A DNA stretch of 64,000 bases from Orenia metallireducens (lineage in GTDB: Bacteria; Bacillota; Halanaerobiia; Halobacteroidales; Halobacteroidaceae): contig NZ_PVNB01000017.1 of the NCBI RefSeq assembly GCF_003001995.1, positions 1-64,000 on the forward strand, written 5' to 3'. Shown piece after piece: positions 50,684-63,152 of this stretch (position 1 is the first letter of the stretch; the number at the start of each line of letters is the position of its first letter). Under the pieces are notes generated by a model. The model was not told the DNA's origin. It ran no database searches and saw nothing but the letters and a program-made list of their open reading frames with translations. The translations under genes and the position numbers were made by a program.

Positions 50684-50719
50684 AAAGATAAAGGCTAATT
50701 AAAATTAGCCTTTATCTTT
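50684..50719. terminator. Bidirectional terminator
   Basis: AAAGATAAAGGCTAATT (50684-50700) pairs perfectly with 50703-50719 around AA, between convergent genes. Confidence 0.88.
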
Positions 50720-50741: not shown

Positions 50742-51503
50742 TTATCTTTTGATAATCTCTTTATTTAATTGACCAAATTTCTGAATAATCTCCTCTTCAA
50801 TTGAGCTATCAGTAATAATTTTATCTATCTCATCTAAAGTAGCAAACTGCGAAAGTCCAATCTCATTAAAAGCAGTATGGTTGGCTAAAATTATTACTTC
50901 ATTAGCTCTTTTAACCATATTAGATTTTGTTTCAGTCTCCAATTCATTAATCTCTGTGGCCCCACGCTCAACTGAGATCCCTTTACAGGATAAGAAAGCC
51001 TTATTAGCATAGTAATTGTTGATATTCTTATTGGCTAAAGGTCCTACAAATGAAAGAGAGCTCCTTCTTAATAGACCACCTGTAGAGATAACAGAAATAT
51101 TCTCATTTTTAGATAACTCATAAACTATTCTATTGGAATTAGTTATAATATTGATATTCTGCTCAAAATCAATCAATTCCTTAGCTAGATAAAGGCAGGT
51201 AGTGCTGGCATCCATAAAGATTGTATCACCAGGGTTAATGAATTGACAAGCCCTTTTAGCAATCTCTTTCTTCTCTTTTTTATATTTATTCTCTCTTATA
51301 TGAAAAGATAATTCACTGTTTGTATCTATAGCAATTGCCCCGCCATGAGTCCTTTTAAGTAAATTCTCTTCCTCTAATTTATTTAAATCTGATCTAATAG
51401 TCTCATCAGTCACTTTAAAGGCTTTACTTAAATCTTTAACTTTAACAGCATTCTCTTCATTTATTATTTTAATGATTTCTTTTCTTCTTTCCTCAGCAAT
51501 CAT
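50742..51503 (-). CDS. DeoR-family regulator, probably of rhamnose genes (RhaR-like)
   Basis: The 253-residue repressor has the DeoR helix-turn-helix (ERRKEIIKIINEENAVKVKDLSKAFKVTDETIRSDLNKLEEENLLKRTHGG) and the sugar-phosphate-sensing DeoRC domain (DTIFMDASTTCLYLAKEL). Several Firmicutes control L-rhamnose use through DeoR-type RhaR. This gene is divergent from the porin and next to rhaBAD. Similar A/C-rich tracts precede it, the porin and rhaB, so I infer that it regulates all three. Confidence 0.85.
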   Translation of the reverse strand: MIAEERRKEIIKIINEENAVKVKDLSKAFKVTDETIRSDLNKLEEENLLKRTHGGAIAIDTNSELSFHIRENKYKKEKKEIAKRACQFINPGDTIFMDASTTCLYLAKELIDFEQNINIITNSNRIVYELSKNENISVISTGGLLRRSSLSFVGPLANKNINNYYANKAFLSCKGISVERGATEINELETETKSNMVKRANEVIILANHTAFNEIGLSQFATLDEIDKIITDSSIEEEIIQKFGQLNKEIIKR

Positions 51504-51779: not shown

Positions 51780-51866
51780 TTGACTTTCTTTTGCATTGAT
51801 ATTAAAATAAAAATATAACAAAATAAATAACGAAACAACAAAACAAAAACAAGAATAAAACAAAAT
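51780..51866 (+). promoter_or_regulatory. Porin promoter and DeoR-type operator tract
   Basis: TTGACT (51780-51785), 17 bases and TAAAAT (51803-51808) are followed by a tract of repeated ACAAAAT/AACAAAAC units (51811-51866). The same promoter and tract occur before rhaB, which points to one shared regulator. Confidence 0.75.
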
Positions 51867-51902
51867 ATGATTTTTATCAACTATTGGGTAACAAGTTTAA
51901 GT

Positions 51903-52015
51903 TAATGGATATAAGTCTATAAAATAAGTATTAATATGAGAGTCCGTTACTATCTTTGGTCTGACGTAAATCTTTTAGGTTTATACAGAGAAGATATAAT
52001 GGGCTCTATTTTATA
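51903..52015 (+). ncRNA. Structured leader RNA of the porin gene (conserved with rhaB leader)
   Basis: A conserved stretch (TTAATGGATATAAGTCTATA...) leads into AGAGTCCGTTA (51939-51949), which pairs over 11 bp with TAATGGGCTCT (51997-52007) and is followed by ATTTTATA. Inside the loop TCTG...CAGA and GTAAATC...GGTTTATAC can pair. The same architecture with changed but still pairing bases lies before rhaB. It is likely an attenuator or ligand- or protein-controlled terminator. Confidence 0.6.
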
Positions 52016-52192
52016 TTGAATATGATAATAAATCCAAATAACTTAATTAATATAAGCAATAAAAATTAAAATGTTATAGTTTTACTTTAAAATTGAAAGG
52101 GGGTGATAGAAGGAAACAAGAAATTGCCATTCTTATAATATTCAAAAGCTATTAAAATCTTAGATAGCTTTAAGTACTCAACAAAAGGGGGG

Positions 52193-52290
52193 ATTACGAA
52201 AAAGTTTCTTGGTTACTTAATTTACTATGGTTATAGTTTCACCAGCATTTGCAGTAGAGAATAATATTAGAAATACTAAGTATTAAAGAG
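52193..52290 (+). pseudogene. Relic of a small secreted or outer-membrane protein
   Basis: After a GGGGGG ribosome-like site the sequence ACG AAA AAG TTT resembles a mutated start. A frame-shifted tail reads FTMVIVSPAFAVENNIRNTKY, a typical signal-peptide end. It looks like a decayed gene start, with no body. Confidence 0.4.
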
Positions 52291-52458
52291 ATATAGCCTG
52301 ATTCATTCTTTTTTGATAACTTATATACTCTTTATAAATAAGACCAATAACTTAATAACCGCTATCAGTAAATTTTAAAAATATCACCTATATCAGTTAG
52401 TAGGGTGAATGTTATTGAAAAGATTTAATATTAAAATAAATAGAAAGAAGGGATAAAA

Positions 52459-53508
52459 ATGAAAAAGAAATTGTTAATAATGAGTTTGATGTTTGTTCTG
52501 ATAATTGGTACTGCTAACTCTGCTTTTGCGATAGGTGGAGAGAAAGTAAAGTTCTCTGGTTATTTAGGTTTTAGATATGACTATGGGGATGATAGTAATG
52601 GTGCGGCTAGAGATAGAGGAGTATTGAAAAATGCGATTAATGCAGATATTACTGCTAGCTATCTGATTGATGACAGAACAGCGGTTCATTTCCATACAAA
52701 TAACTATCAGGAGATGAGATACACTGGAAATTATACTACTGATACTGTTGACACATATGTAACAACTTCACTTGGTGATTATAACCTTAGAGTTGGTAAC
52801 TTTGGTGCAGATTCTGTCGGTTATGGGTTGGTTAAAGGTGGTGGCGGTTATAATACCAACGTCAGAGGGGTAGAATTAGCTCATAATTTTAATGATAAGC
52901 TTAAAGCTACAGTATTTTCTGGTTCATTAGAAGGTAAGGGTAATGATGAGTATCCAAATCAATATTATTATGATATTTATGGTGACGAGCATGGTGGTAA
53001 ATATGACTTTGTAGAGCTTGCTTACAAGTTATCTGATAAGACTAATATTAAAGGAGTTTATCATCAGAATCGTGACTATGATAATCAGTATTATGAGGTT
53101 GGTTTTGATACCAAGTTACCACATCATTTTTCTGCTACTGTAGCAGGTGCCACAGCCAGTTTAGATACAGCTACTATAAATACAGATGATACTAGTTATA
53201 TGGCTCGATTAAAGTATGGTGAGGCTGCTTTTTGGGCACCAGGTCATTCTTGGGATCTTTTTGCCACATATCATAAAAATCCTGCTAATGCTACTCTTGA
53301 TGGAGGTCTTGACAATGATTTTTATGGGGCTCATATCGATAATTTTAAAGGAGTTGTCTTGGGTGGACATTATGTTATTAGAAGAGGTATTTTGCTTACT
53401 GGATTTGTTATGAATGGAGAAAGAATTTCAACAGATAAATGGCATACTAGAGAAGCAGGCGATGATTTTACAGCAGCTCGTATGCAGGTTGATTTTATAA
53501 TTTTTTAA
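52459..53508 (+). CDS. Outer-membrane porin-like beta-barrel
   Basis: The 349-residue protein has a signal peptide (cut after SAFA, about residue 24) and then strand-turn repeats rich in Tyr, Gly and Asp (KVKFSGYLGFRYDYGDD, TAVHFHTNNY, YNLRVGNFGADSVGYG, TNIKGVYHQNRDYDNQYYEVGF). It ends ARMQVDFIIF, with the terminal Phe that BAM-assembled barrels carry. It probably lets rhamnose or rhamnosides through the outer membrane, given its promoter shared with rhaB. The substrate is inferred. Confidence 0.82.
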   Translation: MKKKLLIMSLMFVLIIGTANSAFAIGGEKVKFSGYLGFRYDYGDDSNGAARDRGVLKNAINADITASYLIDDRTAVHFHTNNYQEMRYTGNYTTDTVDTYVTTSLGDYNLRVGNFGADSVGYGLVKGGGGYNTNVRGVELAHNFNDKLKATVFSGSLEGKGNDEYPNQYYYDIYGDEHGGKYDFVELAYKLSDKTNIKGVYHQNRDYDNQYYEVGFDTKLPHHFSATVAGATASLDTATINTDDTSYMARLKYGEAAFWAPGHSWDLFATYHKNPANATLDGGLDNDFYGAHIDNFKGVVLGGHYVIRRGILLTGFVMNGERISTDKWHTREAGDDFTAARMQVDFIIF

Positions 53509-53625
53509 AGAATAAAAAGTACTATTTGATTGAAATAGAGTAAAAAATATAACTCTATGTTATGAGTTAAGTTTTAGAACAGTCTTAGAATAAAACCCCT
53601 TATATTCTTCTTTATAAAACTGTTA

Positions 53626-53708
53626 GGTATTTCCAATATTTCTGCTGTAAAGCTTGTCTGTTAGCTTTATTTTATAGAAATGCTGGGAATACCTTATTTG
53701 TTTTTATG
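53626..53708 (+). terminator. Large hairpin terminator after the porin
   Basis: AGGTATTTCCAATATTTCT pairs with AGAAATGCTGGGAATACCT with minor bulges, around a nested AAGCT/AGCTT hairpin, then TATTTGTTTTTAT. Confidence 0.7.
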
Positions 53709-53788
53709 GGGATAATATAATCTATATGTAATTAAAGGCATCTATTCTAATCTACTTGTTTATTAACTTGAAATTCAAACAATTAATT

Positions 53789-53866
53789 CTTGACTTTCTT
53801 TTTGCAATATATTAAAATAAAAATACAACAAAAGAAAACCAAAAAAACAAAAATGGTAAAACAGAA
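53789..53866 (+). promoter_or_regulatory. rhaB promoter and DeoR-type operator tract
   Basis: TTGACT, a 17-base spacer (TTCTTTTTGCAATATAT) and TAAAAT repeat the porin promoter nearly base for base. An A/C-rich tract (ACAACAAAAGAAAACC...AACAAAAATGG) follows, as before the porin. Confidence 0.75.
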
Positions 53867-53910
53867 TTTTATCAGTTGTTTCTGGTTATAATAGTACATT
53901 ATAGTAATTA

Positions 53911-54022
53911 TAATGAATATAAGTTTATAAGATTATTATTTTAATATAAGAGTTCATTAATATGTATAACCTGACTAGATATGATCAATTTTAGTTAGGG
54001 ATTTAATGGACTCTATTTTTAT
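53911..54022 (+). ncRNA. Structured leader RNA of rhaB (conserved with porin leader)
   Basis: TAATGAATATAAGTTTATAAGAT leads into AGAGTTCATTAA (53949-53960), pairing over 12 bp with TTAATGGACTCT (54003-54014), followed by ATTTTTAT. Inside, CCTGACTA pairs with TAGTTAGGG. Compared with the porin leader three stem positions differ but still pair (T-G/T-A, C-G/T-G, G-T/A-T), which supports selection on RNA structure. Confidence 0.6.
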
Positions 54023-54108
54023 GTTAATTTAGTGAAGTAATCGAAAATTAAATAAATAAAAATATTGAAATTTATAAATTAGTTTTACAGATGCTAGGAG
54101 GAGGTAAC

Positions 54109-55581
54109 ATGGAGATAAGATCTTTGGCTATAGATATTGGTGCTTCTAGTGGACGACTTATTCAAGGGACATTAGAAGATGATATGATAAGCCTAGAAGA
54201 GATACACAGATTTAAAAACCAAATAACAAACAAAAGGGATCAAAAAGGAAATGAACATGCTTGTTGGGAGCTTGATAAGCTTTATAATGAAATTTTAGTA
54301 GGAATTAAGAAGAGCAAAAGTAATGATATAGAAAGCATTGGCATTGATACTTGGGCAGTAGATTTTGTATTACTTAATTCAGCTAATGAAGTTATAGGTG
54401 ATACAGTATCTTATCGCTGCCATAGAACTGATAGGGTAATGGAAGAGGTCTTTGATATTATTTCTAAAGAAGAGATTTATAATAAGACAGGCATACAGTT
54501 CTTGCAATTTAATACAATTTATCAGCTCTATGCTGTCAAGAAATCAGACCCTGAATATTTAGAAGAAGCCAAGTCTTTTCTAATGGTTCCTGATTACTTT
54601 AATTATCTATTGACAGGAAAGAAGAGTAATGAATATACAAATGCTACTAGCACTCAATTATTTAATGTTAGTACTAAAAGTTGGGATCAAGAGATTTTAA
54701 AGCAACTAGATATTCCTAGCAGTATATTTAATGATCCAGTCAAGCCTGGGACAGTAATTGGAGAGATTAAAGATGAATTAAAAGAGTCTTTAGATATAGA
54801 AGAGTTGAAGGTGATTGCTCCTGCTACTCATGATACTGGTTCATCAATTGTAGCAGTTCCGACCAATTCAGCAGATTATGCTTATATCAGCTCTGGAACC
54901 TGGTCTTTAATGGGGGTAGAGACTAAGAAGCCAATTTGTACTAAAAAGGCATTAGAATATAACTTTACCAATGAAGGTGGAGCTTATGAAACTAATAGAT
55001 TTTTAAAGAACATCATGGGATTATGGTTGATTCAAGAGGTTAAGAAAGAGCTTAATGATCAATATGACTTTGGTGAGTTAGTAGAGTTAGCAAAAGAAGA
55101 GCAGGCTTTTAACTCTTTAATCAACCCTAATGATAGTAGGTTCTTAAATCCTGAGAGTATGATTGCAGAGATTAAAAAATATTGTCAAGAAACAGAGCAA
55201 GTAGTACCTCAAAAACCTGGTGAGCTGGCTAGATGTATCTTTGAAAGTTTGGCTTTCCAATATAAGCAAGTACTAGAAGAGTTAACAGAGGTAACTACTA
55301 AAGAGATTAATAAGATTCATATCATTGGTGGAGGGGTTCAAAATGAGTTCTTAAACCAATTAACTGCTGATATTACTGGTTTAGAGGTATATGCAGGTCC
55401 GATAGAAGCAACAGCAATAGGAAATTTATTGGTGCAATATATTGCTTTAGGGTATATTGATTCATTAGAAGAAGCAAGAGAGATAGTCAGTAATTCATTT
55501 ACAATCAAAAATTATACGCCTAATCTTTCCTTAGAAGAGGTAGAGAATAATTGGATAAAATTCAAAGAGCTACAAAATTAG
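54109..55581 (+). CDS. rhaB: Rhamnulokinase
   Basis: The 490-residue FGGY kinase phosphorylates L-rhamnulose. It has LAIDIGASSGRLIQG, IDTWAVDFVLL, APATHDTGSSIVAVP and ISSGTWSLMG, which separate RhaB from glycerol and xylulose kinases. ATG 54109 follows AGGAGGAGG and is preferred to ATG 54091 inside that site. rhaA follows after 14 bp. Confidence 0.94.
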   Translation: MEIRSLAIDIGASSGRLIQGTLEDDMISLEEIHRFKNQITNKRDQKGNEHACWELDKLYNEILVGIKKSKSNDIESIGIDTWAVDFVLLNSANEVIGDTVSYRCHRTDRVMEEVFDIISKEEIYNKTGIQFLQFNTIYQLYAVKKSDPEYLEEAKSFLMVPDYFNYLLTGKKSNEYTNATSTQLFNVSTKSWDQEILKQLDIPSSIFNDPVKPGTVIGEIKDELKESLDIEELKVIAPATHDTGSSIVAVPTNSADYAYISSGTWSLMGVETKKPICTKKALEYNFTNEGGAYETNRFLKNIMGLWLIQEVKKELNDQYDFGELVELAKEEQAFNSLINPNDSRFLNPESMIAEIKKYCQETEQVVPQKPGELARCIFESLAFQYKQVLEELTEVTTKEINKIHIIGGGVQNEFLNQLTADITGLEVYAGPIEATAIGNLLVQYIALGYIDSLEEAREIVSNSFTIKNYTPNLSLEEVENNWIKFKELQN

Positions 55582-60813: not shown

Positions 60814-62682
60814 ATGATATTTTTATTCATTATATTGGCTATAATGGGTACATTTCACTTTATATATATAATGTTAAAAAATAGATATAAGAAGGACTTT
60901 AACATTATCAAAAGGGAACTGAATGATTTAATTCAAGCAACTGAGGTAATAGATATAAATTTTAATGAAAGTAATGAGAGAATTAAGGAAATTTCTGAGG
61001 CTTCAAAATCTATCGCAGCTGGAGCAGATGAACAAGCCGAAGGTGCTGAAGATATTCTTTTGCTAACCAGAGAGCTCCAAGATAAAATTAATGGACTAAT
61101 GGAGAAGAGTTATCATCTATCTTGTAAAGCAGATAATGCAAGAAATCTTAATGAACAACGAGAAGAAGATGTAAGAGAACTTTTAGTAATTGAACAAGAA
61201 ACAAAGAAGTTAATTAGAGAATTAGTAGAGAACATAGCACAATTAAATAAGATGGCAGGAAATATCGAGGAAATTACTACTACAATTACTAATATAGCTA
61301 AACAAACCAATTTATTATCCTTAAATGCAGCAATAGAAGCAGCTAGAGCGGGTGCAGCAGGTCAGGGCTTTCATGTTATAACTGAAGAGATAAGAAATTT
61401 AGCTAATCAGACTCATAATGCCAGCAGTGAAATAGCAACTATTATTAACACTATTTCTAGCCAGATTAATACAGCAATGGAGGTAACAGCTACAGTCAGT
61501 AGCCATTTTCAACAGCGAAATGATGTTATTGAAGGTGTTACCACTTCTTTTGGAGAGATAAGCGCATCATTAAAAGAATTGATTAGTGGTGAAGCTGAGA
61601 TTCATAATGAAGTTAAGTCTATCAATCAATTTAATAAAAATATTATGAACTCTATTTCTGATGTAGCAACAATTGCTGAGGAATCTGCAGCAGTAACTCA
61701 GGAAGTTACTTCATTAATTTTCAATCAAGAAAACCTTCAAGAAGGTGCTTTATCTTCAATTTTAACTTTAAAAAATAGCAATCAAGGTATAAATAGAGTA
61801 TTGAGTAATTATCAACTTGATGATATTGTCACCAATAAGATCACTATAGGTCTATCATTGTTAGAAAAAAGTAAATTTATGAATACTATTGAAGCAGAAG
61901 CAATCAAAGAAGCAGAAAAACTTGGAGTAAATTTAATAATAACAACACCTGAAAAATATAGTGCTGATCAACATTGTCGTTCTGTTAGGCAGTTGATAGA
62001 GAGTAACGTGACGGGGTTTGCTATATTTCCATTAGCTAAAGAGAAGTTAAAACCTTTAGTTAATCAGGCTGCTCAAAAGGGGATTAATATAGTTACAATA
62101 GATAATGATATTTCTGATAGTAGCCGTTTGGCTCATATAGGCACTGATTATCTTAAGATGGGGCAGGCTGCTGGTGAAGCAGCAGTTAATCATCTAAATG
62201 GTAAGGGGAATATAATCGTCTTACTCTGTGGAGCAAATATTTCTAGTATTAAAAGCAGATATGAAGGATTTAAAGAGATTATTGATAGTAATCAGGAGAT
62301 GAAGATTGTAGGATTATCTAAGATGGAAGGTACAGATGCTAAAGAGACTGAAAAAGAGCTAGAAGCTTTGATTGAGGAAAATCCAAATTTCGATCTGTTG
62401 TATGTGGTAACTGACGAAAGTTCTTTAATAGCTGCTGAGTTATATAAGAGAAAGAAATTAAAGAAAAAGCTAGTCTGTATTGCAAATAGTAATGAAGTTA
62501 TGGACTATGTAAAAGCAGGAGTAGTCTCATCACAATTTTGTATGAGAAATAAATTGTGGGGGGCATTACTTGTACGAAGGCTACTAGAAGCTGCCAAAGG
62601 TAAAGGTATACCAGAGATTGAAGATACCGGTTATTATGAAATCAACCAAAGAAATGTAAGTGTTTTCTTAAAAACTGGCTAA
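60814..62682 (+). CDS. Chemoreceptor-like protein fused to a sugar-binding domain
   Basis: The 622-residue protein has one N-terminal membrane helix (about 1-22) and a methyl-accepting signalling domain with the conserved hairpin tip [20 protein letters not shown] (about 167-186). From about residue 340 a periplasmic-binding-protein-like domain follows ([76 protein letters not shown]). With no second membrane helix, signalling and sugar-binding parts lie on the same, probably cytoplasmic, side. It probably reports internal sugar to the chemotaxis kinase. Its place after the rha genes suggests rhamnose or a related sugar. Confidence 0.85.
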
Positions 62683-62774
62683 AGATATTAGTTAGATACT
62701 TTAAAGAATAGGTCTGTTGAGAGTACTGTTTCTGGTTTTTAATTTAATAATTAGGACAAAGGGGTGCTAATAGA

Positions 62775-63152
62775 ATGAAGAAGAGAGTAGCCTTAATTGC
62801 TCATGATAAGAAGAAAGAAGATTTAATCCAATTTGCTAAAAGAAATGAAGAGATTTTAAAGCATTTTGAATTGATTGCAACTGGAACAACCGGGAAGAGA
62901 TTAAATGAGCAGACAAACCTTGAAGTTATTAGGATGGCTTCAGGACCTTTAGGTGGAGATCAACAGATTGGAGCTCAAGTCAGTAATAATAAGTTAGCAG
63001 CAGTTATCTTCTTAAGAGATCCCTTGACTGCTCAACCCCATGAACCTGATGTTAGTGCTTTGCTTAGAGTTTGTGATGTTCATAATGTACCTTTAGCAAC
63101 TAACTTGAGAACTGCTGAGATGATTTTATCATCTTTTAAATCTCAGTTATAG
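62775..63152 (+). CDS. mgsA: Methylglyoxal synthase
   Basis: The 125-residue enzyme turns dihydroxyacetone phosphate into methylglyoxal and phosphate. It shows [20 protein letters not shown] (phosphate site), [14 protein letters not shown] (catalytic Asp) and [15 protein letters not shown] (Asp and His). It lies behind the rhamnose genes, whose aldolase makes its substrate, so it probably relieves triose-phosphate build-up. Confidence 0.96.

Follow-up and report, generated by a model that had tools for sequence, protein, structure and literature searches.

The window analyzed here covers 64 kb of contig C17 in the Orenia metallireducens genome (4.1 Mb) and contains a rhamnose locus. The locus is composed of a DeoR-family regulator gene, a porin-like gene, and the series rhaB-rhaA-aldolase-alcohol dehydrogenase, followed by genes for an MFS_2 transporter, a chemoreceptor, and an MGS-like protein. 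The regulator gene (positions 50742 to 51503, minus strand; Pfam DeoRC, 1.4e-50; HTH_DeoR, 7.1e-18) probably encodes the RhaR repressor and is divergent to the first of two paralogous promoter-operator-leader cassettes (51780 to 52012 and 53790 to 54020), which, like the genes behind them, are on the plus strand. Cassette 1 precedes the porin-like outer membrane protein gene (52459 to 53508), and cassette 2 precedes rhaB (rhamnulokinase, Pfam; 54109 to 55581). Downstream of rhaB, Pfam searches identified rhaA, a class II aldolase gene (rhaD), and an Fe-dependent alcohol dehydrogenase gene (rhaO-like). The chemoreceptor, which has a periplasmic sugar-binding domain, and the MGS-like (methylglyoxal synthase) gene are located after the rhamnose genes, at positions 60814 to 63152.

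Each cassette starts with the same promoter pattern, TTGACT-17-TAAAAT (51780 to 51808 and 53790 to 53818), which recurs in four genomes at a total of five rha promoters. Overlapping promoter 1 is an A/C-rich tract of roughly 11-bp repeats (51803 to 51862), the core of which (TAAAATAAAAATAYAAC) is conserved in three class genomes (G027, G032, and G046). A second tract with a match to this core occupies positions 53813 to 53862. The core matched at these two places only in the window (0.18 matches expected). Known sites of DeoR-type RhaR regulators are direct repeats of 10 to 11 bp (PMC3870299), and we infer that the first tract is probably a DeoR/RhaR operator that is bound by the adjacent gene product. 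DeoR-family genes also adjoin rhaB divergently in G027, G032, and G046. A DeoR-family gene next to the rha genes and an operator of tandem-repeat character common to their promoters are the features by which the locus resembles, and would be assigned to, the described DeoR-type RhaR regulons. Those regulons are controlled at the DNA level, and a text search of the paper describing them found neither attenuation nor terminators nor Halanaerobiales (PMC3870299).

Behind each operator is a leader with a 5' block (segments a and a'), a linker, and an 11- to 12-bp stem that encloses a second hairpin and is followed by a T-rich tail. In leader 1, these elements are segment a (TAATGGAT; 51903 to 51910), segment a' (AGTCTAT; 51914 to 51920), the 5' arm of the stem (AGAGTCCGTTA; 51939 to 51949), the inner hairpin (51950 to 51996; z score, -2.7), the 3' arm (TAATGGGCTCT; 51997 to 52007), and the tail (ATTTTATATT; 52008 to 52017; 5 T's in the first 8 positions). 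The corresponding elements of leader 2 are segment a (TAATGAAT; 53911 to 53918), segment a' (AGTTTAT; 53922 to 53928), the 5' arm (AGAGTTCATTA; 53949 to 53959), the inner hairpin (53960 to 54003; z score, -3.1), the 3' arm (TAATGGACTCT; 54004 to 54014), and the tail (ATTTTTATGT; 54015 to 54024; 6 T's in the first 8 positions); its stem has one A-U pair beyond the 11 bp. The inner hairpins differ in sequence, and both fold. The initial annotation had described two homologous structured leaders behind near-identical promoters and operator tracts, and its sequences, coordinates, stems, inner hairpins, and T-rich tails were all reproduced here.

The whole hairpins are more stable than expected from their composition, with z scores of -5.68 (leader 1) and -5.17 (leader 2), and none of 200 dinucleotide shuffles was as stable. 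The 11-bp helix common to both leaders was not reached in any of 300 column-shuffled alignments, in which the longest helix had 9 bp. The window contains many intergenic hairpins of this size, and stability by itself is therefore no rarity here. The tails are of moderate quality rather than strong U-tracts; in a comparison confined to the window, they match the tail of the terminator-like hairpin that follows deoR (50684 to 50719), with 5 and 6 T's in 8 positions.

Identity between the two cassettes is unevenly distributed. The promoter-operator region is identical at 40 of 51 positions without gaps, and the stretch from the operator to the 5' block is identical at 24 of 48. Within the leaders, the 5' block (51903 to 51920 in leader 1) is identical at 16 of 18 positions, the linker at 14 of 18, the stem arms at 9 and 10 of 11, and the inner loop at 22 of 44; identity is low after the tail. 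Block, linker, and arms together (49/58) differ from the inner loop and upstream stretch (46/92) with a Fisher P value of 2e-5, which is descriptive, the region boundaries having been set on the viewed alignment. Conserved arms around a diverged but still folding loop fit the mark expected of selection on an RNA stem. A recent simple duplication, which the initial annotation had named as a finding that would speak against its proposal, is argued against because the nonstructural parts have diverged to about 50% identity.

The leader stems had also been described as covarying. Three stem positions do differ and still pair, as claimed; however, all three differences are one-sided changes via G-U, with no double change. 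In simulations with the same number of transitions, the main stem stayed paired in 29% of cases, and the term covarying is therefore an overstatement; all four possible helices remained intact in 7%. RNAalifold predicted the stem plus a hairpin formed by a and a' (P0), 17 pairs in total, and the sole double change lies in P0. The significant covariation called for by the initial annotation is thus absent from the stem, for which stability and conservation, rather than covariation, provide good support.

A systematic listing of helices common to both leaders placed the 11-bp stem first and an 8-bp helix between the 5' block and the 5' arm second (a:b'; 51903 to 51910 with 51942 to 51949 in leader 1). 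This helix is present in both leaders, with one G-C pair replaced by A-U in full compensation, and the same compensation occurs in P0. Segment a' can alternatively form 7 bp with the 3' arm. The pairings of the block with itself, with the 5' arm, and with the 3' arm compete, which is suggestive of a classical terminator/antiterminator pair that can be drawn for both leaders. Support for a:b' varies with the null model from a P value of 0.0004 to about 0.1, for two sequences: shuffling the upstream alignment columns gave 0.0004 to 0.001 for a shared helix of this length that involves the 5' arm, single-sequence nulls gave 0.07 and 0.11, and whole-alignment shuffles contained a common helix of at least 8 bp anywhere in 26 of 300 cases (about 9%). 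The a:b' helix (-4.4 and -2.3 kcal/mol in leaders 1 and 2, respectively) is far weaker than the terminator (-28.2 and -23.5 kcal/mol) and would therefore need a protein or ligand to stabilize it, if functional. Before the 3' arm is transcribed, a:b' is part of the predicted minimum-energy fold of leader 2, whereas a different upstream pairing is predicted for leader 1.

Further copies of the leaders were not found. Rfam 15 contains no family matching either leader at gathering or permissive thresholds, and a DNA search of the O. metallireducens genome detected no additional copies. A covariance model of the two leaders (R1) recovered only its two founders from that genome, 59 genomes of the class, and a phylum sample of about 115 to 119 genomes, with the qualification that the large searches used stricter filters and that a two-sequence model would miss relatives retaining only the shape. 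The same model detected no leader at the rhaB loci of relatives. All other hits were weak. The best outside match, in G102 (E value, 0.011), was rejected; it lies at the 5' end of an unrelated ORF and has one pair broken. A match in G038 overlapping a phosphatase-like ORF was likewise rejected.

The promoter-operator pattern is more widespread, occurring at five sites in 4 of the 59 class genomes (control pattern, none): in front of rhaB in G000, G027, G032, and G046 and in front of the porin-like gene of G000. In G032 and G046, a ribosome-binding site follows the operator almost directly, leaving no room for a leader, and in the rha leader of G027 the best hairpin was no better than shuffles (z scores, 1.0 and 0.7). 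Because rha operons with the same operator have either no leader or no significant hairpin, the element is dispensable for rhamnose control, and these loci indicate that control by RNA does not extend to the rhamnose regulon in general. In two genomes belonging to the same genus, rhaB had no match. The rha operon of G032 additionally carries a transposase-like gene between the aldolase and alcohol dehydrogenase genes (L050, 6915 to 7865). Of the RNA-level control of a rhamnose regulon proposed in the initial annotation, the structured leaders behind a common rha promoter-operator hold up, and the mutually exclusive pairings listed here, which could make an attenuator, lend additional support; the expected spread upstream of sugar genes does not, as no second genome has the leader.

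From the computed paralogy, stems, conservation pattern, and alternative pairings, we infer how termination, antitermination, and any rhamnose-linked signal might operate. Both leaders would be copies of one old cassette, in which RNA polymerase would initiate transcription from a sigma-A promoter that a DeoR-type (RhaR) operator overlaps. The leader stem and its T-rich tail would then act as a premature intrinsic terminator. When the 5' block folds on itself as P0, the 5' arm would be free and the terminator could form; when the block pairs with the 5' arm, the terminator would be blocked, and the leader could in principle serve as an attenuator. Our confidence is evenly balanced on the general reading, namely, that the leaders are an old, lineage-specific, locally duplicated leader terminator that may work as a regulated attenuator downstream of DeoR-type repression. 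Taken singly, termination by the stem has about an even chance on these predicted structures, and regulated attenuation is a tentative, rather unlikely extension of it. Still more doubtful is a lineage-specific, rhamnose-linked, duplicated RNA switch, by which the porin-like gene and the rhamnose operon would carry the same terminator/antiterminator leader atop DeoR repression.

The main rival is a constitutive structured leader, whose hairpin would stabilize or process the mRNA (as a 5' stability hairpin or RNase site) or space the promoter from the genes, and no termination switch would exist; complementarity between a and b' would be a by-product of a repeated TAATGG motif. We consider this explanation quite plausible, if short of even probability. 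The thermodynamic weakness of a:b' and its marginal standing against single-sequence nulls agree with it, as do the relatives having the same operator and no leader and the abundance of long intergenic hairpins here. However, the a-a' block lies outside the hairpin and is nevertheless among the best conserved parts, and its one base change is accompanied by matching changes in a' and the 5' arm. An improbable second explanation is that a DNA-binding regulator recognizes a, a', b', and b as half-sites (consensus TAATGGACTCT) and that the RNA fold is incidental. Each of the four segments does resemble a single half-site, read directly or inverted, but the motif shows no enrichment in the window (31 occurrences versus 28.4 expected), and the arms are 47 nucleotides apart, enclosing a hairpin of which the fold and not the sequence is conserved. 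The arms also contain G-U pairs (two in leader 1 and one in leader 2) that would be mismatches in DNA, which argues for RNA over DNA pairing. Ribosome-mediated attenuation by a tiny peptide encoded in the 5' block (ATG GAT ATA AGT CTA TAA, MDISL; ATG AAT ATA AGT TTA TAA, MNISL) is highly improbable: the start, length, and stop of the frame are retained in both copies, but AT-rich DNA of this kind often contains five-codon frames, the codons have no rhamnose-relevant logic, and neither ATG is preceded by a Shine-Dalgarno sequence, whereas rhaB has AGGAGG.

Leaders of the BglG/LicT RAT type control sugar operons by antitermination; in them, an alternative upstream pairing overlaps the terminator. 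The Orenia leaders share the sugar operon context and have a possible pairing of this kind, but a RAT consensus was not recognized in them in a comparison by eye, no Rfam family matched, and no BglG-type gene is among the annotated genes beside the rhamnose operon. Should the leaders be regulated attenuators, they would provide an RNA-level link between outer membrane uptake and catabolism of rhamnose in a diderm relative of Gram-positive bacteria, and they would exemplify a cis-regulatory RNA that has spread by duplication inside a single regulon. As simple terminators or stability hairpins, they would be no more than an ordinary local feature. To our knowledge, RNA-level control has not been described for any rhamnose regulon, and a rhamnose-linked switch of this kind would be the first; consistent with the initial annotation, no rhamnose leader RNA was found in the literature. 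Attenuator leaders as a functional class are well known (PMC2965389), and the Orenia leaders would be a new, apparently private member. Like the catalogued premature terminators, they have a terminator-like hairpin in the 5' untranslated region and a drawable antiterminator, located between promoter and operon genes; in each Orenia leader, the hairpin is stable and is followed by a U-rich tract of moderate quality. The catalogued families were accepted on recurrence across species, whereas only a single genome has the Orenia leader, and searching the text of the catalogue gave no mention of rhamnose, sugar, or porin (PMC2965389).

The gene behind leader 1 is called porin-like on the basis of its sequence character, as an ORF with a signal peptide; its product had no Pfam match, no PDB match by sequence, and no relative among the class genomes. 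Between leader 1 and this gene (52134 to 52254) is the relic of a porin-type gene start, with a ribosome-binding site and a broken signal peptide ending in SPAFAVE, which is 69% identical to the upstream and start region of an intact outer-membrane-protein-like gene on contig C1 of the same genome. The present gene may be a replacement of, or an insertion behind, an older porin-type gene. Behind it (53616 to 53704) is a strong compound hairpin (-32.5 kcal/mol) that resembles the leader architecture in its outer stem, inner hairpin, and T-rich 3' side and is probably the porin terminator.
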